Positions 5,430 through 47,782 of a stretch of DNA of 64,000 bases are shown in pieces. Origin of the DNA: Lachnospiraceae bacterium. GTDB lineage: Bacteria; Bacillota; Clostridia; Lachnospirales; Lachnospiraceae. The DNA lies in the NCBI GenBank assembly GCA_910574195.1, contig CAJTBF010000011.1, positions 29,659-93,658 on the forward strand, given 5' to 3'. Each line of letters begins with the position of its first letter. Position 1 is the stretch's first letter. The notes below the pieces were generated by a model. That model saw only the letters and a list, made by a program, of their open reading frames with translations. It was not told the origin of the DNA and searched no databases. The translations under genes were made by a program, and so were the position numbers.

Positions 5430-6926
5430 CTATACCCCGCTTTTTTCATTCAATAATGGCAGAGAGGACTGTCCCCGCAATTGAATCAAAGGACCTCCGG
5501 TACCCTCGATATACTCCCGGGTAATGGTTACCTCTCCGATGCTGTCGTCTTTTGGAATCTCATACATAATGTCCAGCATAAATTCCTCGATGATTGCACG
5601 CAGCGCCCTGGCGCCGGTATCCTTCTCCATTGCCTTTTCCGCGATGGATTCCAGTGCGCCTTCATCAAACACCAGCTTCACCTCATCCAGCGCAAGCAAT
5701 TTCTGATATTGTTTCAGAATCGCGTTTCTTGGCTCTTTGAGAATTTTCACCAGCATCTCTTTGTCCAGACCTTTTAGCGTAAAAATAATGGGAAGGCGGC
5801 CGATAAATTCCGGGATCATTCCGAACTTTCGCAGATCCTCTACTGTGACTTTACTTAAAATCTCTTTATCTTTCTCATATTGATCTTTCAGTTCCGCGTT
5901 GAAACCCATAGAAGTCTTTTTAGACAGTCGTTCCCTGATGATCGTCTCCAGATCCGGAAAAGCGCCGCCGCAGATAAACAAAATATTTTTAGTATTTACC
6001 GTCGTTAAAGGCACCATGGCGTTCTTACTGTTGGCTCCTACCGGAACCTCCACCTCGCTTCCCTCCAGAAGCTTCAGCATTCCCTGTTGTACGGACTCTC
6101 CGCTGACGTCCCGCTGATTGGAATTCCTTTTTTTGGCAATCTTATCAATCTCATCGATAAATATAATTCCCTGTTCCGCACGTTCTACGTCATTGTCGGC
6201 AGCCGCCAGTAATTTGGAAACCACGCTCTCGATATCATCCCCTATGTACCCCGCTTCCGTCAGAGACGTAGCGTCGGTAATTGCCAGAGGTACATCCAAA
6301 AGTCTGGCCAGTGTTTTTACCAGATAGGTTTTCCCGCTTCCTGTGGGACCGATCATCAGCATATTGGACTTCTCGATTTCAATGTCATCCATCGTATCCG
6401 TCGCCACACGTTTATAATGATTGTATACGGCAACGGAAATCGCTTTTTTGGCATATTCCTGTCCAACCACATACTCGTCCAGGCGCGCTTTAATTTTATG
6501 CGGCGCCGGAATATCCCTGATATTCAGCTTTGGAACCGGCGCTTCCTTTTTTGCTTCCTTTTTCTTTTTAATCTTCTGCCGCTTCGGCACCGTATTCTCC
6601 AAATCAGACAGATTCAGGAACTGAACCCCCGGCATATTCCCCATCAACTTGGTGATATCCAGAGAACCATTATTCATGGCATCAAAACTCCTCTGCATAC
6701 AGTCCTGGCAAATGGTAATGTTGCTGGGAAGTTCAATCATCTTACCGGTCACACTTTCGGGACGATGGCAGATAAAACAGACCTTCTCATACTCATCTTC
6801 CCTCTTCTCTTTTTCCTCTTCCTTTTCCCCCTGCGTATCAGAAACGGCCATCTCCTCTTTTTCTTCCGCCGGGGAAGATTCTCCTTGTTCCTCTGTATCA
6901 ACTATGATAAAATCATTTTCTGACAT
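5430..6926 (-). CDS. clpX: ClpX-type AAA+ unfoldase, divergent long form
   Basis: 498 aa against about 420 for typical ClpX. Residues 1-46 are an acidic extension. A ClpX zinc-binding domain follows (Cys50, 53, 73, 76), then a Lys-rich linker (about 114-130) and the AAA+ module. This has Walker A GPTGSGKT (193-200), pore loop GYIG (226-229), Walker B IIFIDEID and a GAR sensor 2. The ClpP-docking tripeptide, IGF in most ClpX proteins, is here MGF (340-342), so ClpP binding looks possible. Known role: ATP-driven unfolding and delivery of proteins to ClpP. There is no clpP or tig alongside, unlike the usual clpP-clpX operon, so this could be a second ClpX in the genome. Confidence 0.88.
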   Translation of the reverse strand: MSENDFIIVDTEEQGESSPAEEKEEMAVSDTQGEKEEEKEKREDEYEKVCFICHRPESVTGKMIELPSNITICQDCMQRSFDAMNNGSLDITKLMGNMPGVQFLNLSDLENTVPKRQKIKKKKEAKKEAPVPKLNIRDIPAPHKIKARLDEYVVGQEYAKKAISVAVYNHYKRVATDTMDDIEIEKSNMLMIGPTGSGKTYLVKTLARLLDVPLAITDATSLTEAGYIGDDIESVVSKLLAAADNDVERAEQGIIFIDEIDKIAKKRNSNQRDVSGESVQQGMLKLLEGSEVEVPVGANSKNAMVPLTTVNTKNILFICGGAFPDLETIIRERLSKKTSMGFNAELKDQYEKDKEILSKVTVEDLRKFGMIPEFIGRLPIIFTLKGLDKEMLVKILKEPRNAILKQYQKLLALDEVKLVFDEGALESIAEKAMEKDTGARALRAIIEEFMLDIMYEIPKDDSIGEVTITREYIEGTGGPLIQLRGQSSLPLLNEKSGV

Positions 6927-7048
6927 TTTTTATCCTCCAGACATTCTTGTTGCGATACACCCGGATCGGCAATACACCGATCTGACCTTTATTATAATGG
7001 AAACCTTCTTCCGTTTCAAATTAACTTTTTCTAAAACCACCTTCCGAT

Positions 7049-9007
7049 TCATTCCACCAGCATTTTCAAAAACGCTTCCTCCGATAAAATCGGGATTCCC
7101 AGTTCCCGTGCCTTTTTATTTTTGGAAGAGGTGGACTGCACGTCATTGTTGATCAAATAGTTCGTCTTTGAAGTCACGGAACCGGTCACTTTCCCACCCT
7201 TACTTTCGATCAATTCTTTCAGTTCTCCCCGGTTTGCAAAATGCTGAACACTTCCCGTAACGACAAACGTCTTCCCGGTAAGCCTTCCAGCCTCCTCCTG
7301 TATTTCTTCTTTTGGAAGTGTCACTTCTTTCAGAAGTTTCCGGAACAATTCCCTGTGGTTTTCCCGTGCAAAATAATCTGTAAAAGATTTCGCAATCACG
7401 CCGCCCACGCCGGAAATCTCGTTCAATTCTTCCTCCTTTGCACAGAGAAGCTGTTCCGGATCATTGTGAAATGCTCCGCAGATTACTTTCGCATTGGCCA
7501 AACCAATATTGGCAATTCCCAAACTATACACCAGACGCGGCAATGTGGTCTTTCTGGCTCTGGCAATACTGCTTTGCAGATTCTGATAAGACTTTTCTCC
7601 AAAACCTTCCAGATCTTGTATCTCCTGTGCATAACGTTCCAGATGAAACATATCCGAAAAATCTTTTATAAATCCCTGCACAATGAATTTTTCCAGTGTT
7701 GCCTCCGACAGCCCTTCTATATTCATAGCGTCCCGGCTGACAAAAAGTGCAAACGATTTGATCTGTTTCGCCTGACATTCGGGATTCGTACAGTACAGCG
7801 TTTTTGTATCATTTTCCATGGAAATCCGTGTCGCGCCGCCGCAAACCGGACAGGTTTCGGGAATCTTACACATTCCGCTTCTGGTCCTGTTCCCCGCGAT
7901 CTGCGGAATAATCATGTTAGCTTTATATACCTCGATGGTGTCGCCGATTCCCAGTTCCAATTCCTCCATAATACTAAGGTTGTGCACACTGGCGCGGCTT
8001 ACTGTGGTGCCTTCCAGTTCCACGGGTTCAAACACTGCTACCGGATTAATCAGTCCGGTTCTGGACGGACTCCACTCGATTTCCTTCAATGTGGTCTCCC
8101 GGATCTCATCGGCCCACTTAAATGCAAAAGAATCCCTGGGAAATTTCGCTGTCGCACCCAGAGACTGCCCGTATGCAATATCGTCATACACCAGGACCAG
8201 GCCGTCGGAAGGAATATCGTTATCTGTAATATGCTGTGCAAACCATTCTACTTCTTCTGCAACCGTTTCTGCGTTGACCTGATGATGCTCTACCACTTCG
8301 AATCCCTGACTTTCAAGCCATTCCATCTGCCGGAATCTGGAATTTTCAAAATCCACTCCGTCCGCACGCACCAACGTAAATGCAAAAAAACGTACATTTC
8401 GTCTGGAGGTTACTTCATTACTTAACTGGCGCACGGAACCGCTGCATAGATTTCTCGGATTTTTATAACGTGCGTCTACATCCTCAATCTCCGCATTGAT
8501 CCGCCGAAAATCCCGATACCCAATCACGGCTTCTCCCCGAAGAACTAATTCTCCTTTATACGGAATATGGAGCGGAAGATTTTGAAATACTTTTGCATTA
8601 TTCGTGATCACTTCTCCCACTTCCCCATTTCCGCGGGTAACCGCTTTTTCCAGACTTCCATCCCGGTAAGTCAGTACAATCGTCAAACCATCCAGCTTCC
8701 AGGAAATCACCGCACTCTGCGCTCCCAGAAATTCCCGAAGGCGCTCCACTTCCTTCGTTTTATCCAAAGACAACATGGGACGCTCGTGCCGCTCTTTGGG
8801 CAATTCGCTCAATACTTCATAGCCCACTTGAACCGTCGGGCTGGAGGCGAGAGTGAGGCCTAATTCCTGCTCTAATTCAGATAACTCATCATAAAGCCTG
8901 TCATATTCATAATTACTCATTAGCTCCGTGTCTTCCTGCTCGTAAGCACGACGCGCACGATTCAGAAGTTCTGTCAGCTCCTGTAATCTTTCCCTTTTCT
9001 CTTCCAT
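7049..9007 (-). CDS. ligA: NAD-dependent DNA ligase (LigA family, divergent)
   Basis: 652 aa. Domains in order: Ia (YEYDRLYDEL near residue 35), adenylation domain with nucleophile Lys104 in SWKLDG, OB fold, four-Cys zinc finger (CPVCGG then CTNPEC), helix-hairpin-helix region and a C-terminal BRCT domain. It seals nicks using NAD. The sequence departs from typical LigA at otherwise conserved places, such as NPRNLCSGSVRQL where NPRNAAAGSLRQL is usual, so it may be a second ligase. It lies between rluF and clpX on the same strand with a short gap to rluF (34 bp). Confidence 0.9.
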   Translation of the reverse strand: MEEKRERLQELTELLNRARRAYEQEDTELMSNYEYDRLYDELSELEQELGLTLASSPTVQVGYEVLSELPKERHERPMLSLDKTKEVERLREFLGAQSAVISWKLDGLTIVLTYRDGSLEKAVTRGNGEVGEVITNNAKVFQNLPLHIPYKGELVLRGEAVIGYRDFRRINAEIEDVDARYKNPRNLCSGSVRQLSNEVTSRRNVRFFAFTLVRADGVDFENSRFRQMEWLESQGFEVVEHHQVNAETVAEEVEWFAQHITDNDIPSDGLVLVYDDIAYGQSLGATAKFPRDSFAFKWADEIRETTLKEIEWSPSRTGLINPVAVFEPVELEGTTVSRASVHNLSIMEELELGIGDTIEVYKANMIIPQIAGNRTRSGMCKIPETCPVCGGATRISMENDTKTLYCTNPECQAKQIKSFALFVSRDAMNIEGLSEATLEKFIVQGFIKDFSDMFHLERYAQEIQDLEGFGEKSYQNLQSSIARARKTTLPRLVYSLGIANIGLANAKVICGAFHNDPEQLLCAKEEELNEISGVGGVIAKSFTDYFARENHRELFRKLLKEVTLPKEEIQEEAGRLTGKTFVVTGSVQHFANRGELKELIESKGGKVTGSVTSKTNYLINNDVQSTSSKNKKARELGIPILSEEAFLKMLVE

Positions 9008-9041
9008 ATTCCGGCTATTCTCCCTATACGATTATTTTACT

Positions 9042-9809
9042 TTAAAAGGATTCCTGCACCGGCAGATTGGAGGAACCCTGAATCTGTTCATACAACAGAT
9101 CCAGCTCCGCATCTGTCAGCCTGCGTATCTCCCCTTCTTTTAAAGTCCCCAGTTCAATATTGAGAATTCTGGTTCTTACCAGATCTTTTACCCGATACCC
9201 CAAGGCTTCACACATCCTGCGAATCTGACGGTTCAGTCCCTGTGTCAGTATAATAGAAAATGTATATTTTCCTATCTTTCGTACTTTGCAGGGTCTGGTC
9301 ACTGTTTCTAAAATAGGGACCCCTTCCGCCATCTGCGTGAGAAAACCAGGCGTAACCTCTTTGTCCACGGTTACTTTATATTCCTTTTCGTGCCGGTTCC
9401 CGGCACGCATAATTTTATTGATGATATCACCGTTGTTCGTCATCAGCAGAAGTCCTCTGGAATCCTTATCCAGTCTTCCCACATAAGTGATTCTTACCGG
9501 ATAATTTAAAAAGCGGATGATACTGTTCCGCTCTCTTCGTTCTTCCGTACAGACAATCCCCACCGGTTTATTCACCGCAAGCACCACCAGTTCTTCCTGC
9601 CTGGACACCACTTGCTTGCCCACACGTACTACCTGCTCCGGCCAGACCTTCATGCCGATTTCGGCCGGATGCCCGTCCACCGTCACCCGGCCTGCAGTAA
9701 TCAGTTTATCCGCTTCCCGCCTGGAACATACCCCGGCTTCACTCAAATATTTATTCAGTCGGAGAGGCTCCGACTCCCGACGAAACTCCTGCGCCATCCT
9801 ATTCTTCAC
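9042..9809 (-). CDS. rluF: 23S rRNA pseudouridine synthase RluF
   Basis: 255 aa with an N-terminal S4 RNA-binding domain (LNKYLSEAGVCSRREADKLI) and a RsuA/RluB-type synthase domain. The catalytic Asp is in GRLDKDSRGLL. The stretch NKIMRAGNRHEKEY followed by CKVRKIG and GLNRQIRRMCE matches RluF, which modifies U2604 of 23S rRNA, better than RluB or RluE. The GTG at 9809 has an AGGA box; it overlaps the end of the upstream DHHW gene by 11 bp. An ATG at 9797 is an alternative. The overlap suggests cotranscription with the acylation cassette, though the functions seem unrelated. Confidence 0.87.
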   Translation of the reverse strand: MKNRMAQEFRRESEPLRLNKYLSEAGVCSRREADKLITAGRVTVDGHPAEIGMKVWPEQVVRVGKQVVSRQEELVVLAVNKPVGIVCTEERRERNSIIRFLNYPVRITYVGRLDKDSRGLLLMTNNGDIINKIMRAGNRHEKEYKVTVDKEVTPGFLTQMAEGVPILETVTRPCKVRKIGKYTFSIILTQGLNRQIRRMCEALGYRVKDLVRTRILNIELGTLKEGEIRRLTDAELDLLYEQIQGSSNLPVQESF

Positions 9810-10983
9810 TTTCGTCCTGCTCCCTGCCTAACACACCGCTGATATTGTTATCCTGAAAAAATGTATTTCCGCTGTATAAAAATAAAGTATCCGAAATCCG
9901 GTATGTTTCCATTACCTCATCAATCCTGCCGCTGTAATACCGGGGGTCCACCAATATAATTTCCCGGAAATAGGGCGTCAGAAAAGGAACGAAACAATTT
10001 GCAAAAGAATCTTTTATCACCAGCAGTCTTCGTTTACTCTCGGAAACCGTTTTTATATCCACCAACGATGTATTTCCACCCATAAAAACCGCATATTGAT
10101 CCCGGGTTTTTAACTTGGAAGAATCATACAGAGATGTCGTTTTCTTCTGTTCGTCCACATAGTTGACCACCACTTCGGTATCCATCTCTGTCGGAACATA
10201 GATATCGATTCTCTCTTTCTCGTGCAGGCCGCATCCGCTTTTCGCCGCCAACGTCCCGTTAAATGAGGTAGAAACCGGGTAGGACGCATAACTGCTGGCA
10301 ACTTCCGTCTTAATGTTCATTTGTTCCGCTACGGCGCCAAATGTATAAAATGCCCCCAGGCTGGTCCAGTGATGATCCGTCTTATAATAGATTTCCTCCT
10401 CCTTGTGATCCTTTAAAACCTGCGCGGCATCCAACCATACCAAAGAATCCCCCAGTTCCCGTTTTACCTGAGCGAACATCCGGTTCTGATCTGCCACCGT
10501 CGCAAAAGTAGGCAGAAGGTCACTCTTGATATTGGCCGCATCCGGCACCAGCATCATATACATTTCCACGTCTTTGTTCCGACCGGCAAATTTTTCAATG
10601 GTCTCCAGATTCTCCTTCAATACTTCCTGATCCGAAGACACTATTTTCTCCATCAGATACCCTTCTTTTCCAATCAGAACTCCGTTCTCTTCCCGGCTCC
10701 CGCCCAAACGGTTCAGCTTCACCTTCAGACTCCTCCACAGATTCCTTCCGGCAAACTGATCGGACAGGTAGTCTTCCGTTTTTGACATAAAGCTTCCTGA
10801 TGTCAGCCCGTTCCAGGTCAATTTAGGCTTCCCCTCAAGCATCCTGTTTTCCTCTTCCGACATTTCTTTATCCGGTACCAGCAGATTAAACAGGAACAGA
10901 ACCAGAAAACAGACAATCATTGTCTTACCGACTGTTCCCTCTACTCTTGTTCTTTTTCTATGCTTTTTTTGATTTTGTACCAT
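9799..10983 (-). CDS. DHHW-motif protein, putative polymer O-acetylation accessory factor (AlgJ/AlgX-like)
   Basis: 394 aa with one N-terminal membrane anchor (about residues 22-37) and a large extracytoplasmic domain. The signature YKTDHHWTSLGA is the DHHW motif related to the catalytic region of the alginate acetylation proteins AlgJ and AlgX. It lies downstream of an MBOAT gene, as in other acylation systems. Predicted role: transfer of acyl groups, moved across the membrane by the MBOAT partner, onto a surface glycan or teichoic acid. The acceptor is not known. Start: ATG with an AGGAG box. Confidence 0.82.
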   Translation of the reverse strand: MVQNQKKHRKRTRVEGTVGKTMIVCFLVLFLFNLLVPDKEMSEEENRMLEGKPKLTWNGLTSGSFMSKTEDYLSDQFAGRNLWRSLKVKLNRLGGSREENGVLIGKEGYLMEKIVSSDQEVLKENLETIEKFAGRNKDVEMYMMLVPDAANIKSDLLPTFATVADQNRMFAQVKRELGDSLVWLDAAQVLKDHKEEEIYYKTDHHWTSLGAFYTFGAVAEQMNIKTEVASSYASYPVSTSFNGTLAAKSGCGLHEKERIDIYVPTEMDTEVVVNYVDEQKKTTSLYDSSKLKTRDQYAVFMGGNTSLVDIKTVSESKRRLLVIKDSFANCFVPFLTPYFREIILVDPRYYSGRIDEVMETYRISDTLFLYSGNTFFQDNNISGVLGREQDESEE

Positions 10984-41257: not shown

Positions 41258-41286
41258 TTGACATTTCTATATTTTTCTAATAAAAT
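41258..41286 (+). promoter_or_regulatory. Promoter of the ECF/SAM-hydrolase operon
   Basis: TTGACA (41258-41263), 17 bp spacer, TAAAAT (41281-41286). An imperfect dyad ATAA-TGTCAAC-TTAT overlaps the start region and could bind the GntR/UTRA protein encoded at the operon end. A small hairpin lies at about 41183-41210. Confidence 0.75.
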
Positions 41287-41337
41287 AATGTCAACTTATT
41301 AAACATGTTCAACAACATAGAAAGAGAGGACATACTC

Positions 41338-41913
41338 ATGAAAAAAGGAATTGGTAAAGCGTTTTTTGGGGAATGGAACACAAAGACAATTGTAACGATG
41401 GCTGTTGGGGCAGCCCTGTATGGCGTATTGATGGTATACGGCGGCATTCCTATTTTTTCACAAACGAATCTGTCGACGGCAATGATCGTTCCTGTTATCG
41501 TCGGGGCAATGTATGGCGCACTTCCGTGCAGTCTGACTTTGCTGATTGGAAATATCATCGCAGATCTGATTGCCGGTAACGGAATGTGGTTTGACTGGTC
41601 TATTGGCAATGCAGTGCTTGGCCTGTTTGTCGGGTTGCTTCCGGTCTACGGCGCATATATCACAGAAGGAATCTTTAAAGTAAAACATGCCATTATTTAT
41701 GGCGTACTCTGTATTGTGGGCAACATCATTGCATTTGGAATTGTTACACCGATCTTTACATATCTGTTCTACGGCGGAGAACTGAAAGTCACATTTATCA
41801 TGGCTGGTTTTGCATGCGCAGGTAATATTGCAATTCTTCTGATCGTAGGAATCCCGGTTCTCTTCTTGCTGGCAAAGCGTTATGCTTCAAGAACAAACCT
41901 GACTGCAGAATAA
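41338..41913 (+). CDS. ECF transporter substrate-binding (S) component, UPF0397-like
   Basis: 191 aa from ATG 41338 (GAGAGGA box), five or six membrane segments. The N-terminal TKTIVTMAVGAALYGVLMVY and the acidic/aromatic segment near NMIADL-type positions (IIADLIAGNGMWFDW) fit the UPF0397 branch of ECF S components, often auto-annotated as riboflavin-type. It would bind one small vitamin-like substrate. With SAM-cleaving enzymes in the operon, a nucleoside, methionine-related or adenosyl compound is plausible but unproven. Confidence 0.82.
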   Translation: MKKGIGKAFFGEWNTKTIVTMAVGAALYGVLMVYGGIPIFSQTNLSTAMIVPVIVGAMYGALPCSLTLLIGNIIADLIAGNGMWFDWSIGNAVLGLFVGLLPVYGAYITEGIFKVKHAIIYGVLCIVGNIIAFGIVTPIFTYLFYGGELKVTFIMAGFACAGNIAILLIVGIPVLFLLAKRYASRTNLTAE

Positions 41914-41943
41914 TCATGATTCAGGAAAGAACGGGATGAGAAT

Positions 41944-43653
41944 ATGAAAAAACCGATCATTGAATTTAAAGATTTCACCTTTCGGTATAAAACGCAGGCG
42001 AACCCGACGCTTCATGATATCAATCTGACGATTTACGAAGGAGAAAAAGTGCTGATTCTGGGGCCAAGCGGAAGTGGCAAATCCACGCTTTCCAATTGTG
42101 TAAACGGATTGATTCCTTTTTCTGAAAAAGGAGAGATCAAGGGTTCTCTGAAGGTAGACGGAATGGAAACCCAGACGGCAAGTCTTTTTAAGCTGAGTAA
42201 AATCGTCGGAACGGTTCTTCAGGATTCGGATGCACAATTTGTAGGATTATCGGTGGGTGAGGACATTGCGTTTGCCCTGGAAAATGAAAATATGCCGCGA
42301 AGTGAAATGCTGCCAAAGGTGGAAGACGCCGCGCGGATTGTAGGGATGGAGGACTTTCTGGAACATCTTCCGTATGCGTTATCCGGCGGGCAAAAGCAGA
42401 AGGTCGCCCTGGCGGGCGTGATGCACGATAAGGTAAAAGTACTTATTTTTGACGAGCCTCTGGCGGCGCTTGACCCCCACATGGGAATGGTAGCGGTGGA
42501 TCTGATCGACCGGATATGCAGGGAGCAGAACAGAACGGCGCTGATCATTGAGCACCGTCTGGAGGATGTACTTTACCGTCCGGTTGACCGGATTATTCTG
42601 ATGGCAGAAGGACGGATTGTGGCCGCCATGGAGCCGGAAGAGCTGCTTCGTTCCGGGCTGCTCAAAACATACGGGATCCGTGAGCCGCTCTATTTGACGG
42701 CAATGAAGTATGCGGGATGCAGTCTGGGAAAAGAACAGAAGCTGTCTGATCCGGACAAGCTGGAGCTGACAAATGAAAACCGGGAATGTATGGAGAAGTT
42801 CTTCAAAGAAACTGCGGCGACATATGAGCCGCGGGCGGAAGAAGCTTTGATTCACGTGGACCAGGTTTCTTTTTCCTATGATGAAGCCATGGTGTTAAAA
42901 GATGTGAATTGTACGATCAGAAAAGGGGAAAAACTGGCGCTGATTGGAAAAAACGGCGCCGGAAAGACAACACTTGCAAGATTGATCTGCGGCGTAAACC
43001 GTCCGACAAAAGGGCAGATTCTCATCCAGGGAGAAAATTATACGACATTGTCTATTAAGGAAATCGGGGAAAGAATTGGCTATGTCATGCAGAATCCGAA
43101 TCAGATGCTTGTAAAGGATATTATCCGGGATGAAGTAGAGATGGCGCTGAAACTTCGGGGGTATTCTGCAGAAGAAGTGGAGAGCCGCACAAAACGTGCG
43201 CTGGAAATGTGCGATCTTTATTCCATGCGTAACTGGCCGGTGAGTTCTGTAAGTTACGGACAGAGAAAGAGGATTACGATTGCGGCTGTGCTGGCTTTGG
43301 AGCCGGACGTCATTATTCTGGACGAACCGACTGCGGGACAGGATTACAGGCATTATGTAGAAATTATTCAATTTATTAACGAATTAAATGAAAAATATGG
43401 AAAAACCATCGTGCTGATTACACATGATATGCATCTGGCTATTGAAAATACAGACCGTGCAATCGTGTTTGCAGAGGGGGAAATGATTGCAGATGACAAA
43501 GTGTTTAAAGTATTGTCTGATGATAAGATAATTCAGAAAGCGAACCTGAAACAGACCTCTTTGTATACGCTTGCATGCAGGATCGGCGTGTCTCCTGAGG
43601 AGTTTATCTCCCGTTTCATTTCCTATGAAAGGATGGTGAGCTCAAGTGAATAA
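41944..43653 (+). CDS. ECF transporter fused ATPase (A-A')
   Basis: 569 aa with two complete nucleotide-binding domains. First: Walker A GPSGSGKST, signature LSGGQKQK, Walker B VLIFDEPLAALD. Second: Walker A GKNGAGKTT, signature-like SYGQRKR, Walker B VIILDEPTAGQD. Fusion of EcfA1 and EcfA2 is usual for dedicated (group I) systems. The gene follows the S component by 30 bp. Confidence 0.93.
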   Translation: MKKPIIEFKDFTFRYKTQANPTLHDINLTIYEGEKVLILGPSGSGKSTLSNCVNGLIPFSEKGEIKGSLKVDGMETQTASLFKLSKIVGTVLQDSDAQFVGLSVGEDIAFALENENMPRSEMLPKVEDAARIVGMEDFLEHLPYALSGGQKQKVALAGVMHDKVKVLIFDEPLAALDPHMGMVAVDLIDRICREQNRTALIIEHRLEDVLYRPVDRIILMAEGRIVAAMEPEELLRSGLLKTYGIREPLYLTAMKYAGCSLGKEQKLSDPDKLELTNENRECMEKFFKETAATYEPRAEEALIHVDQVSFSYDEAMVLKDVNCTIRKGEKLALIGKNGAGKTTLARLICGVNRPTKGQILIQGENYTTLSIKEIGERIGYVMQNPNQMLVKDIIRDEVEMALKLRGYSAEEVESRTKRALEMCDLYSMRNWPVSSVSYGQRKRITIAAVLALEPDVIILDEPTAGQDYRHYVEIIQFINELNEKYGKTIVLITHDMHLAIENTDRAIVFAEGEMIADDKVFKVLSDDKIIQKANLKQTSLYTLACRIGVSPEEFISRFISYERMVSSSE

Positions 43654-44497
43654 CCGGTTTTTGATTAATTTTCAACCCGGGAATACGATGCTTCATAAGC
43701 TGACCGGTACAACAAAGGTCAGGCTTTTTCTGGTACTGACAGTATATTTGATTATGTCGTGGGATTTACGTCTGATCGTGCCTGTCCTGATTGCGGGGAT
43801 TGTGGGATTGATTTCCATGCGTCCGAACTGGAAGCCGATTCGTATCATGTTTATTTTTTTCATTGTAATCAATCTGTTAAATTTGTTTTTGTTCTTTATC
43901 GCAGATCCGGATATCGGAACCAAGTTCTGTGGTTCGAGAACCGTGCTGAAGGATCTGCCGGGCTACCTGTATATCAGCGGGGAAACAATGTGGTATCTAT
44001 TTACAAGATTTATAAAAATATTGGCCACATTCACCATATCCATCACATTTATTCTGTCGATCACACCGTCTGAGTTTGCAGCGGGACTGTATTCGATTAA
44101 GGTGCCTTACAAAATTTGTACGGTCGTGGAACTGGCGTACCGTTGTATACCGGATATTGTAAGAGATTATCAAAACATTTCCACCAGTATGCAGGCCAGA
44201 GGCGTGGAGATGGATGCAAAAAAGATTGGTCTGTGGAAGCGTCTGAAACAGATGGTTATGATCATTGTACCACTTTTGTTATCCTCTTTTGACAAAGTGG
44301 GAAATATTGCAAATGCAATGGATCTGCGCGGCTACGGAAAGCTGAAAAAGCGCAGCTATTATGCAGAACACGAAGCAACGAAAGCAGACGGCGTCTTCAA
44401 AGTGGTGTATCTGGCGGGGATTTTGATCTGTATTGCCTATATTGCTTATAAAATGCTGTCGCCCACCTATCTGCAGCTCTGGTATCCATTTGTATAA
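43646..44497 (+). CDS. ECF transporter transmembrane (T) component
   Basis: 283 aa, overlapping the ATPase gene by 8 bp. Five to six membrane segments (CbiQ/EcfT family). The coupling-helix motif with Ala-Arg-Gly is visible as SMQARGVEMDAKK, and a second as AMDLRGYGKLKKR. It links the ATPases to the S component. Its presence makes this a complete, self-contained ECF transporter. Confidence 0.93.
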   Translation: MNNRFLINFQPGNTMLHKLTGTTKVRLFLVLTVYLIMSWDLRLIVPVLIAGIVGLISMRPNWKPIRIMFIFFIVINLLNLFLFFIADPDIGTKFCGSRTVLKDLPGYLYISGETMWYLFTRFIKILATFTISITFILSITPSEFAAGLYSIKVPYKICTVVELAYRCIPDIVRDYQNISTSMQARGVEMDAKKIGLWKRLKQMVMIIVPLLLSSFDKVGNIANAMDLRGYGKLKKRSYYAEHEATKADGVFKVVYLAGILICIAYIAYKMLSPTYLQLWYPFV

Positions 44498-44533
44498 GCG
44501 TAAATGAGGTGAAAAAGAAAGGAGAAAAAACTT

Positions 44534-45382
44534 ATGAAACCTGCAATTGTAATGCAAACGGATTTTACAGCTGACACAAGCGCGGTATGTACAATGTATG
44601 GCGTATGTCAGATGGTAGATCCGGAGCTGAGAATCTTTAACAATACTCATGCAATACCGGGATTTGATATTTTCAGCGCTTCCTGTAGTCTGGATTATGT
44701 GGTTGATTTCTGGCCGGAAGGTACGGTATTTGTTTCCGTAGTAGATCCGGGCGTGGGAACTGCCAGAAAAGCGTGCGTGGCAAAGTTGAAAAACGGGCAG
44801 TATGTAGTAACCCCGGATAACGGGACTCTGACTCATATAGCAGAAAAAATCGGAATTGAAGAGGTGCGCGAGATTGACGAGACAATCAACCGATGGGTTC
44901 CAACGAAAGCATGCAGTATCTTCCATGGAAGAGATTTGTTCGCATACTGTGCTGCAAGACTGGCGTCAGGCATTATCACATGGGAACAGGTCGGAAAAGA
45001 ATATCCCCTTGAGGAAGTTGTGAAACTTCCACTGGTAAAACCGGAGTGCGGACAGGATGGAACGGTATCCGGCATGATTCAAAGCGCGGGCGTACACTTC
45101 GGATTGGTTTCCTCTAACATTCCGTATCAAATGCTGGAGGAAACAGGTGTAAGCTACGGAGATACCGTAAAAGTTAGAATCTGCCATAACGGGGAAGAAA
45201 AATATCTGGGAGAGGCAAAATACTGTAAGTCCTTCGGATATGTGGCAGAGGGAGAACCGGTTGTGATGGTAAGTGAATCCCTGACCGTACAGATTGCGCT
45301 GAATCTGCGTAACTTTGTAACCGTTTACGGCATTGGTCAGGGACCGGAATGGACGATTGCGTTCCAGAAAGCAGGGCGATAA
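44534..45382 (+). CDS. SAM hydroxide adenosyltransferase (DUF62), copy 1
   Basis: 282 aa. The family splits S-adenosylmethionine with water into adenosine and methionine; fluorinases and chlorinases are relatives. The conserved triad of the hydroxide enzymes is present: Asp71 and Arg78 in VVDPGVGTAR and His131 in FHGRD; TPDNGTLT is also typical. It lacks the insertion loop of the fluorinase. The N-terminal SAM-contact motif is TDFTADTS where TDFG is usual, unlike copy 2. AGGTGAAAAAGAAAGGAG precedes the start. Confidence 0.9.
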   Translation: MKPAIVMQTDFTADTSAVCTMYGVCQMVDPELRIFNNTHAIPGFDIFSASCSLDYVVDFWPEGTVFVSVVDPGVGTARKACVAKLKNGQYVVTPDNGTLTHIAEKIGIEEVREIDETINRWVPTKACSIFHGRDLFAYCAARLASGIITWEQVGKEYPLEEVVKLPLVKPECGQDGTVSGMIQSAGVHFGLVSSNIPYQMLEETGVSYGDTVKVRICHNGEEKYLGEAKYCKSFGYVAEGEPVVMVSESLTVQIALNLRNFVTVYGIGQGPEWTIAFQKAGR

Positions 45383-45397
45383 GCCGGAGGTGAAAAG

Positions 45398-46249
45398 ATG
45401 AGCAAAGCATGCATTGTTTTACAGACTGATTTTGGCCTGAACTGGGGCACCGTAGCATCTATGTATGGGGTATGTAAGCAAGTGGATCCCCAGCTTGAGA
45501 TTTTTGATCTTTCCCATACGATTGAACAGTTCAATACACTGGCTGCTTCAGAGTGCCTTCAATATACGGTAAAATACTGGCCAAAAGGAACCGTATTTGT
45601 ATCTGTGGTAGATCCGGGCGTGGGAACATCCAGAAAGGCATGTGTGGCAAAGACAAAGAACGGATATTATATTGTGACCCCGGACAACGGGACTCTGACT
45701 CATATAAAGGAAATGTATGGGATCGAAGAAGTACGTGAAATTGATGAGACCGTGAACCGCTATCCCGGCTCAGAGAAAGTCAATGTTTTCCATGGAAGAG
45801 ACTTATTTGCATATTGCGGGGCAAGACTGGCCGCAGGTGTGATCACCTATGAAGAAGTCGGTGAAGCATATCCCACAGAAGAGATTGTGATTCACGAACT
45901 TTCTTATGGACAATACGGAGATGGCTGGGCAGAAGGAAAGATCGGAGAAGCGCTGGAGCAATTCGGCAACATCAGTACGAACATATTGAATGATGATTTT
46001 GAGAAAACAGGAATCCGGGAAGGAGATATGGTACACATTCGGATTAAAAACAAAGCGGAAACCGTGTATGATTCACCGGTGTTGTATCATCGTTCTTTTG
46101 GGTTTGCAGAGATTGGAGATCCGGTACTTTTTAACGGGCTGGCGTCTTTTATTGCGCTTGGGCTGAACCAGCGCAGCTTTGCCGCAAAGTATCATATCAA
46201 AGGCGGAGACGGCTGGACGATACGGATTGAGAGGGAAAACCATGCTTAA
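45398..46249 (+). CDS. SAM hydroxide adenosyltransferase (DUF62), copy 2
   Basis: 283 aa, clear paralogue of the preceding gene (15 bp apart). Triad Asp72, Arg79 (VVDPGVGTSR) and His132 (FHGRD); the N-terminal motif is the canonical TDFGLNWG. The C-terminal halves of the two copies differ far more than the N-terminal halves (for example GQGPEWTIAF against GGDGWTIRIE). A heteromer or division of labour is possible. DUF62 enzymes form trimers with active sites between subunits. Confidence 0.9.
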   Translation: MSKACIVLQTDFGLNWGTVASMYGVCKQVDPQLEIFDLSHTIEQFNTLAASECLQYTVKYWPKGTVFVSVVDPGVGTSRKACVAKTKNGYYIVTPDNGTLTHIKEMYGIEEVREIDETVNRYPGSEKVNVFHGRDLFAYCGARLAAGVITYEEVGEAYPTEEIVIHELSYGQYGDGWAEGKIGEALEQFGNISTNILNDDFEKTGIREGDMVHIRIKNKAETVYDSPVLYHRSFGFAEIGDPVLFNGLASFIALGLNQRSFAAKYHIKGGDGWTIRIERENHA

Positions 46250-47021
46250 GAAGTGTACTGCCGAAGATGAAACTGTATTGAAAGAATACCTTATGAAGGA
46301 GAAAGAATATAATACATTTCTTCTGGCAGATATCGCGGCATATGGTTTTGACAATCCCTGCCAGGATGTATGGATGGAGACAAACGATGATGTTTGTGAA
46401 GGAATTTATCTGAGATTTTACACCAATTTGCTTGTTTACAGCCAAAATGTAGGTTTAAAACAGACAAGCGTAGAAATTATTTTAAGAAAGTCTCCGGTAT
46501 CTGTTATAATGGGAAAAAGCAGTACGCTCAAAGATCTTGGAAAATTTCTGTCAAAGGAATATGATTGTTCCGAAAAGCAGCTGTTCAGACTGCGTACAAC
46601 CAAGAAGCTTCGGAATACCGTTTCTGATGTGTTACAGGCAGAGGAAAAGGATGTTGACGATATTTTCCATTTTCTGGAAAGTATCCCTCAGATACGGGCG
46701 TTATATACTTCTAAGGAAATGATTCGCGACAGAATTATCAACGGAGACGGCGTGCATTTGTTTATGCGGGACGGCAAGACGATTATTTCACATGGAAACA
46801 GTACGACAGAGGCAGAGCAGACCGTGATGATCGGCGGCGTCGCGACAAAGGAAATGTACAGAAAAAAAGGGTATGCTTCCTGTGTGGTATCGGCGTTGTG
46901 CAATTATATTTTAAGCCGCGGCAAGGCGCCCTGTCTGTTTGCAGAAAACGGACTCGCCCCTTTCTTTGAAAGTCTGGGATTTGAATCTCTGGGAGGATGG
47001 AGTACGCTGGAAAGGAAATAG
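46242..47021 (+). CDS. GNAT family protein of the ECF/SAM-hydrolase operon
   Basis: 259 aa from ATG 46242, overlapping the upstream stop by 8 bp. The C-terminal half is a GNAT fold: GGVATKEMYRKKGYASCVVS (acetyl-CoA motif) and ENGLAPFFESLGFESLGG. The N-terminal half (about 1-120) is a divergent second domain, as in other two-domain GNATs. The substrate is unknown; translational coupling ties it to the SAM hydrolases. Confidence 0.85.
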   Translation: MLKKCTAEDETVLKEYLMKEKEYNTFLLADIAAYGFDNPCQDVWMETNDDVCEGIYLRFYTNLLVYSQNVGLKQTSVEIILRKSPVSVIMGKSSTLKDLGKFLSKEYDCSEKQLFRLRTTKKLRNTVSDVLQAEEKDVDDIFHFLESIPQIRALYTSKEMIRDRIINGDGVHLFMRDGKTIISHGNSTTEAEQTVMIGGVATKEMYRKKGYASCVVSALCNYILSRGKAPCLFAENGLAPFFESLGFESLGGWSTLERK

Positions 47022-47053
47022 AGAAACGGATGGAACACGAAAGGAATACACAG

Positions 47054-47782
47054 ATGAAGACGTTGGGAAACAGTAAGATTCCATCTTATGTTCCGATTTA
47101 TGACCGATTGTATACAGATATTATGGATGGGGTCTACGAACCGGGATCCAGACTGCCGGGCGAAGCGGCACTTGCCGGGAAATATCATGTAAGCAGGAAT
47201 ACGCTGCGTCAGGCGCTTACCGTTCTGGTGGAAGACGGACTGGTTACGAAGATACAGGGGAAAGGGACATTTGTTACCTACGACGGGAGACGGGAACAAG
47301 AGGATCACGGGCTGTATAATCCAATGATTACATGCAGCAGAAGCCGTATTGACAAGGTGGATGTCTATTACAACTTTGGACCGGCAACAGAAGTCGGGCA
47401 GCGTAAACTGGGACTGCGTCCGAGCGAGATTGTATTGGCAGGCAACAGTGTATTTCATGCGAAAGGCAAGCCGGTGGGACATTCGTTTATGCAGATTCCG
47501 GTGAAGCACATAGAAAATCTGAATGTGGATCTGGGAAAAGAGGAAGATGTGCGTGAAGTAATCAACCACCATATTTTTGAAGTGTCCGCATCTGTAAAGA
47601 TGTCGATTAAATTAATTTATGCGGAAGATTATATTACAAATTATTTAAAAGTGTCCCGGGAAACACCGTTAATTTTTATCGAAGAGATTTTTTATAATAA
47701 GGAAAAAGAAGCGGTTTCCAGGGGGAAATTTTATTTCCTGCCAGACGAGTATGATATTGTATTTCAGGACAAGGAAACATAA
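47054..47782 (+). CDS. GntR/HutC-type regulator with UTRA domain
   Basis: About 242 aa from ATG 47054 (AAGGA box); in-frame starts at 46997 and 47030 would overlap or lie closer to the GNAT gene. The winged helix shows VPIYDRLYTDIMDGVYEPGS, then NTLRQALTVLVEDGL and IQGKGTFV. A UTRA ligand-binding domain follows (about 85-240). It probably senses the operon's substrate or product and controls the promoter at 41258. Confidence 0.88.
   Translation: MKTLGNSKIPSYVPIYDRLYTDIMDGVYEPGSRLPGEAALAGKYHVSRNTLRQALTVLVEDGLVTKIQGKGTFVTYDGRREQEDHGLYNPMITCSRSRIDKVDVYYNFGPATEVGQRKLGLRPSEIVLAGNSVFHAKGKPVGHSFMQIPVKHIENLNVDLGKEEDVREVINHHIFEVSASVKMSIKLIYAEDYITNYLKVSRETPLIFIEEIFYNKEKEAVSRGKFYFLPDEYDIVFQDKET

Follow-up and report, generated by a model that had tools for sequence, protein, structure and literature searches.

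A seven-gene operon of an ECF transporter, two DUF62 enzymes and a GntR regulator as a putative S-adenosylmethionine salvage module in a Lachnospiraceae genome

The stretch of DNA analyzed here, called the window throughout, comprises 64,000 nucleotides of contig CAJTBF010000011.1 (positions 29,659 to 93,658) from a Lachnospiraceae bacterium, and all positions below are counted within it. Between 41258 and 47782 of its plus strand lies one promoter followed by seven open reading frames (ORFs), which encode the S, A-A' and T components of an energy-coupling factor (ECF) transporter, two DUF62 proteins (S-adenosylmethionine (SAM) hydroxide adenosyltransferases), a GNAT protein and a GntR regulator, in this order. 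The promoter (41258..41286, TTGACA-17 nt-TAAAAT) has 11/12 consensus matches and is aligned in four genomes. The S (substrate-binding) component of 191 amino acids (41338..41913) is assigned by PF07155 and NF010182; its gene most likely starts at 41338, downstream of a ribosome-binding site, rather than at 41305, and the relatives agree. It is followed by the fused A-A' ATPase (41944..43653), in which Pfam and NCBIfam recognize two ABC stretches and DUF3744, and by a T component (43646..44497) of the CbiQ family in Pfam, which stays under the NCBIfam CbiQ equivalog cut-off. DUF62 copy 1 (44534..45382) and copy 2 (45398..46249) share 51% identity. A GNAT acetyltransferase-like protein with a Pfam and no NCBIfam match (46242..47021) and a GntR/UTRA transcriptional regulator recognized by both databases (46997..47782) complete the operon. 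The distances between consecutive genes are 30, -8, 36, 15, -8 and -25 nt. The last of these depends on the GntR start ATG at 46997; a start at ATG 47030, which is possible, would abolish the overlap. When longest ORFs are compared, the 25-nt overlap of GNAT and GntR is found also in Diplocloster agilis (locus L019), and none in L030 and L032. As S, A, A' and T are encoded together, the transporter appears to be of the dedicated (group I) ECF type. The first-pass annotation of this DNA, which had described seven closely packed or overlapping genes behind a good promoter, is borne out by ORFs, domains, gaps and the promoter match.

Both DUF62 copies score over the cut-offs for SAM_HAT_N and SAM_HAT_C and contain the catalytic triad D72/R79/H132. 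When a gap is scored as a loss, 117 of 118 sequences retain the D, 116 the R and 112 the H. According to PMC10491745, DUF62s retain this water-activating triad and halogenases are without it. Neither window copy reaches the (R)-SAM hydrolase equivalogs NF053629 (105 and 116 bits, cut-off 470) and NF058624 (103 and 102 bits, cut-off 350). The fluorinase model TIGR04507 has its cut-off at 400 bits, where the two copies score 66 and 80, and the triad is present; adenosyl-fluoride or adenosyl-chloride synthases the two proteins do not appear to be. The PDB chain 7ccg_A, a DUF62-family protein titled "DNA-directed RNA polymerase subunit delta", aligns without any of the three residues of the triad.

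The full seven-gene order recurs in Diplocloster modestus, D. agilis and Lachnoclostridium sp. An169, all three loci coming from a scan of genome contigs, and the second DUF62 of these genomes is 79-82% identical to the window copy. The order, whose conservation the first-pass annotation had proposed to check, is thus not unique to the strain, and since it is repeated whole in three other named genomes, the arrangement goes beyond chance. This DUF62 is matched in 9/61 genomes (the window's own included). Larger surveys found DUF62 matches in 17/391 genomes of the class, 23/398 of the phylum and 53/148 of the order of genome G730, at thresholds of 1e-20, 1e-20 and 1e-30, respectively, with the window's own genome counted in class and phylum; 15 of the 23 genomes in the phylum survey have weak matches only.

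Neighborhoods were tallied for 90 loci whose DUF62 exceeds 40% identity to a reference, some genomes supplying several loci. In 69/90 of them the strand that carries DUF62 also has an S component at a distance of no more than 6 kb, and in 60/90 S, A-A' and T are all found within these limits. The 21 loci without S comprise 13 in which a single DUF62 follows a methionine T-box, three from an outgroup clade, three at contig ends, L194 (with S-AA'-T on a different contig) and L020. Left out of the count were L031 (same record as L019) and L166 and L167, which hold an outgroup DUF62 without ECF genes in E. coli and Aeromonas records of a plasmid collection; at about 4.9 Mb, these records are probably chromosomes. 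As a control, S or T was found nearby in 0/11 inspected loci with distant DUF62s, from 11 of the 15 weak-match genomes. DUF62 and S occur together in 40/148 genomes of the order (53 positive for DUF62, 51 for S; p 4e-15) and in 16/391 of the class (17 and 30 positive, respectively; p 2e-19), both p values ignoring kinship. The window operon is a member of a widespread DUF62-ECF system, and the dependence between DUF62 and S is one-sided. The window genome itself contains a second such system (L027, G000:C5:103000-122000, at 6349-10618 of the locus) with the order AA'-T-DUF62-S and neither GNAT nor GntR, its S component being about 29% identical to the window S. At L020 (7473-12426) a DUF62 pair, GNAT and a divergent GntR are retained and a GPH-type cation symporter occupies the ECF position. 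This is an apparent replacement of the transporter, and a swap in which the enzymes are kept would be expected if transporter and enzymes have a common substrate.

The regulation of related operons provides a second line of evidence. Rfam, with which the window and part of the loci were scanned, finds T-box leaders adjoining several DUF62/ECF operons of relatives. From nine aligned T-box regions, one of them belonging to a permease-mmuM operon, we built a stem I model, the specifier columns reading ATG in 9/9; a search for T-boxes by a simple text pattern had overlooked several of the leaders detected by Rfam and by this model. Over 96 sources the model gave 26 matches, 23 of them ahead of DUF62, of S or of an operon with both, and the specifier is AUG (methionine) in 23/23 of these leaders. 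Specifiers were assigned by eye from their position ahead of the 3' GAG at a spacing of 6 nt, with the exceptions of L116 (spacing of 7 nt; the alternative frame would give a stop codon) and L148 (GCG in place of GAG). The three remaining matches serve as controls of the reading: AUG ahead of MetQ, AUG ahead of permease-mmuM and, by spacing, UGG ahead of genes that look trp-like by eye. Twenty of the 23 T-boxes stand directly upstream of DUF62 genes, seven of these twenty at the head of DUF62-S-AA'-T operons (L088, L115, L121, L129, L161, L164 and L165). Among the seven, L161 has an ATPase that has diverged further, and the leaders of L164 and L165, which are two E. faecium plasmids, are equal in score. 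In L122 the T-box precedes MetA-MetY-DUF62-S-AA'-T. Window-type S components also lie behind T-boxes, in L128 (S-AA'-T-DUF62), which the S tree puts in the window's clade, and in L176 (S-AA'-T-MmuM), which is outside the S tree and was placed with this type because its S and the window S are 46% identical. The leaders suggest that the module of these relatives would be induced by uncharged tRNA-Met.

Genes of methionine and nucleoside metabolism are found around the relatives of the operon as well. Five loci of one genus carry MetQ-M20 peptidase-MetN-MetI upstream, a single small membrane gene separating them from DUF62-S, and at a sixth (L152) MetQ-M20-MetN-MetI lie at a distance of 5-6 kb. 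A nucleoside phosphorylase gene is found in the same five loci, at 3.6-5.3 kb from S or DUF62; where the A-A' gene is in view, the two adjoin. A nucleoside hydrolase is next to DUF62 in L023, L025 and L029, and a dipeptidase-like M20 gene lies between T and DUF62 in L063, L067, L070 and L075. In L176, whose genome is without a DUF62 match, S-AA'-T is followed by the homocysteine S-methyltransferase MmuM. Enzymes of the MmuM type take the methyl group from S-methylmethionine or from SAM. DUF62 acts on SAM (PMC12120602, PMC10491745), and SAM is thus the substrate common to both families.

Two further arrangements were observed in this connection. In L165 (408-9990), an E. faecium plasmid that is typed as conjugative, a permease-mmuM pair and the DUF62-S-AA'-T operon are found within about 5 kb. 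A separate methionine T-box precedes each of the two, and genes for IS6-family transposases flank and separate them. The loci L175, L177 and L180 have a more distant S component in the vicinity of genes that look MurB-like by eye and of genes for nucleosidases of methylthioadenosine (MTA) and S-adenosylhomocysteine (SAH), hinting that this S may bind another adenosyl or methylthio substrate.

The window operon ends with GNAT and GntR. Nine genomes of the set have a GNAT gene adjoining DUF62; in L021 and L022 it is fused to GntR, and in L085 and L087 it stands between the two DUF62s. The fusion in two relatives indicates that the GNAT may serve in regulation or in some other role. For the earlier suggestion that it detoxifies or modifies the product we found no support. 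Downstream of the -10 box, a block of 24 nt (41293..41316) has 24/24 columns identical in four genomes. It is the single site in the window at up to 3 mismatches, and 100 shuffles gave 0 such sites. Its core, GTTCAACAA, occurs exactly once each in 7/9 GNAT-bearing sequences, always upstream of the first operon gene, about 1.3 sites being expected by chance over all seven sequences; it does not occur in L085 and L087. The conserved block is probably the operator of the GntR.

On balance we consider it probable, by a modest degree, that the operon imports SAM (or a very close adenosyl-sulfonium) and cleaves it by two DUF62 hydrolases for methionine salvage. This reading draws on the linkage of DUF62 to S, on the methionine T-boxes in relatives and on the methionine and nucleoside genes in their vicinity. 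In the presumed course of events, the S component would capture external SAM and the dedicated ECF module would bring it into the cell. In the cytoplasm the DUF62 pair would then direct water at the 5' carbon of the adenosyl moiety, releasing methionine and adenosine, provided that the imported pool is indeed what these enzymes use. SAM from the surroundings could thereby serve as a source of methionine, and of purine. The genome has metK, and with a SAM synthetase of its own the cell need not depend on the system for its SAM. In the window's branch the operon-encoded GntR/UTRA, together with its GNAT partner, may stand in place of the T-box switch; the regulator would probably bind the 24-nt promoter site. 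The first-pass annotation had considered an adenosyl- or methionine-related compound that is imported and then cleaved. The 23 T-boxes, MetA-MetY, MetQ-MetN-MetI and MmuM speak for this idea, and its "SAM analogue" is here narrowed to SAM itself. MTA or SAH as substrate of the operon is disfavored by the chemistry of DUF62, which needs a sulfonium, and stays conceivable for the importer alone.

Several observations weigh against the assignment of SAM, and they are gathered here together with the alternatives on which they bear. Firstly, NCBIfam names the family of the window S "ECF-type riboflavin transporter substrate-binding protein" (NF010182), and the protein exceeds its cut-off with 105.7 bits against 99. 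The name of PF07155 likewise favors import of riboflavin, or of another unrelated vitamin, with the DUF62 genes nearby by accident. NF010182 is also the name given to S components linked to DUF62, so the label does not separate S components from one another. The recurrent linkage to DUF62 and the methionine T-boxes speak against such a vitamin, and Rfam at its gathering threshold found no FMN (flavin mononucleotide) riboswitch in the window or in the loci scanned, rib genes not having been searched for. Taken together, we regard this alternative as very improbable. Riboflavin import was rejected as the best reading, since the label derives from a family name and the context is that of methionine. 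The window contains no metabolite riboswitch of any kind at the Rfam gathering threshold. The sole one in the scanned loci is a lysine riboswitch in L063 (3369-3542, minus strand) just upstream of the ECF-DUF62 operon, apparently belonging to a divergent gene. Comparison of the window S with PDB sequences gave no meaningful match.

Secondly, the host is no obvious methionine auxotroph, since besides metK its genome keeps three O-acetylhomoserine sulfhydrylases that score over cut-off. The metH match of this genome (G000:C1:208255-211037) is partial, under cut-off and interrupted by one internal stop.

Thirdly, S is present without any DUF62 in the genome in 11/51 S-positive genomes of the order and 14/30 of the class, and S-AA'-T stand together in 5 and 12 of these, respectively (in one of them, L192, the contig stops directly after the cassette). 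Because S-AA'-T without DUF62 is common, the importer does not require the hydrolase. This suits a different division of labor, in which the transporter would carry methionine or a methionine precursor, a view already in print, and the DUF62s would reclaim methionine from damaged (R,S)-SAM of the cell itself, both being regulated together and acting on separate substrates. Methionine T-boxes would fit any function that yields methionine, and PMC12120602 reports that a Salinispora DUF62 favors (R,S)-SAM, the fluorinase preferring (S,S)-SAM. The 13 T-box-DUF62 loci without adjoining S can be explained in the same way; twelve of them belong to a single family in the survey of 148 genomes and have no S match genome-wide. 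Outside that family, however, S is present in 16/17 DUF62 genomes of the class and 40/41 of the order, and the tandem DUF62s and the exchange of the transporter for a GPH symporter in L020 point to a common substrate. We consider separate substrates to be unlikely, and less probable than a shared one.

Fourthly, the T-box evidence is uneven, since 12/23 leaders come from one family and the others from five families and named Listeria and Enterococcus records. The stem I model found no T-box in the window, L019, L030 or L032, nor did Rfam in the window. All T-box-controlled DUF62 genes (22/22) belong to a clade, type B, that holds none of the three DUF62s of the window genome. In the tree the subfamily divides into types A and B, and 18/24 tandem pairs consist of one of each; the DUF62s of the window, D. 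modestus, D. agilis, An169 and L020 form a ten-sequence branch of their own on the type A side.

Finally, both window DUF62s are changed at R53, Q56, D186, W193, Y245 and N247, which are 97-100% conserved in 100 other members; this comparison of types A and B left out five outgroup sequences, L130_D1 and two L144 fragments. Most of the ten-sequence branch is changed at the six positions too, 2/10 retaining D186. In types A and B, residues D186, W193, Y245 and N247 match the fluorinase and chlorinase (D-x-x-F-G-x-x-W-T-N; Y-x-N-S). The loss of these fluorinase-like pocket residues means that epimer or substrate may have changed in the window's branch, and we infer that the four residues may set the choice of epimer. 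One proposal is that the branch is a SAM-salvage module specialized for (R,S)-SAM or another adenosyl-sulfonium. It is suggested by two hydrolases that both are without the fluorinase-like pocket, by the missing type B partner and by GntR and GNAT, which perhaps sense the compound itself, in place of the T-box; we hold it possible, and rather doubtful. If it is correct, the usual pair of type A and type B would serve both epimers of scavenged SAM.

The same residues would also agree with a more distant departure, namely that the branch handles a different adenosyl-sulfonium or a SAM-like natural product, to be detoxified or used, with GNAT and GntR dealing with the compound. The conservation of the promoter block would fit this, as would a GntR encoded in the operon where no T-box was found, and the GNAT that accompanies the window's branch and a few others. 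Nevertheless, the window-type S components of L128 and L176 lie behind methionine T-boxes, and at several lost positions the branch is closer to ordinary DUF62s, such as that of Thermotoga maritima (2zbu). Such a compound seems decidedly unlikely to us, and import of SAM or a very close sulfonium remains the interpretation that we favor.

If the assignment of SAM is true, three consequences would follow. DUF62s destroy a costly cofactor, and in PMC12120602 their purpose is called unknown or doubtful; the link to an importer and to methionine T-boxes would give this subfamily a reason, which is to unpack imported SAM as a source of methionine. SAM would join the substrates of ECF importers, and its trade as a nutrient in bacterial communities would be suggested. 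Moreover, the NCBI label "riboflavin" of these S components would be corrected.

The operon was earlier said to correspond to no characterized pathway. As far as we can see, this holds at the level of experiment, and it fails in one respect: a methionine-regulated ECF transporter has already been named. Among the papers listed by literature searches that paired DUF62 or SAM hydrolase with ECF or T-box, none links them. The methionine-regulated transporter is already in print, and what we add, by inference from sequence, is the proposal of SAM. The transporter's full name we take to be MtsTUV. In PMC3654945, a table of ABC uptake porters lists MtsU in TC family 29 (TC 3.A.1.29), the "Methionine precursor (Met-P) Family". 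PMC9423846 names SSU0362 of Streptococcus suis "Substrate-specific component MtsA of methionine-regulated ECF transporter" and the adjoining SSU0361 RNA polymerase delta. SSU0361 is probably a DUF62, as the same odd polymerase name is attached to the DUF62-family chain 7ccg.

The systems to which the window operon is related resemble MtsA/MtsTUV, as described, in that an ECF importer is tied to methionine regulation, through T-boxes that precede two window-type S cassettes as well. The window operon differs in its encoded GntR, in having no T-box, in its two DUF62s and GNAT, and in the proposed substrate, SAM. With the known (R)-SAM hydrolase the two window DUF62s share SAM_HAT_N, SAM_HAT_C and the D72/R79/H132 triad, and they depart from it as tandem paralogues that are linked to an importer and score under the NCBIfam equivalog cut-offs. 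To the fluorinase and chlorinase (FlA, SalL) a likeness exists in the pocket motifs of type A and type B relatives, which the window pair has lost. In the salvage of S-methylmethionine by MmuP/MmuM, uptake of a methionine sulfonium is followed by an enzyme that releases methionine. The window operon would employ another class of transporter and another chemistry, and the logic of uptake and subsequent release would be alike.

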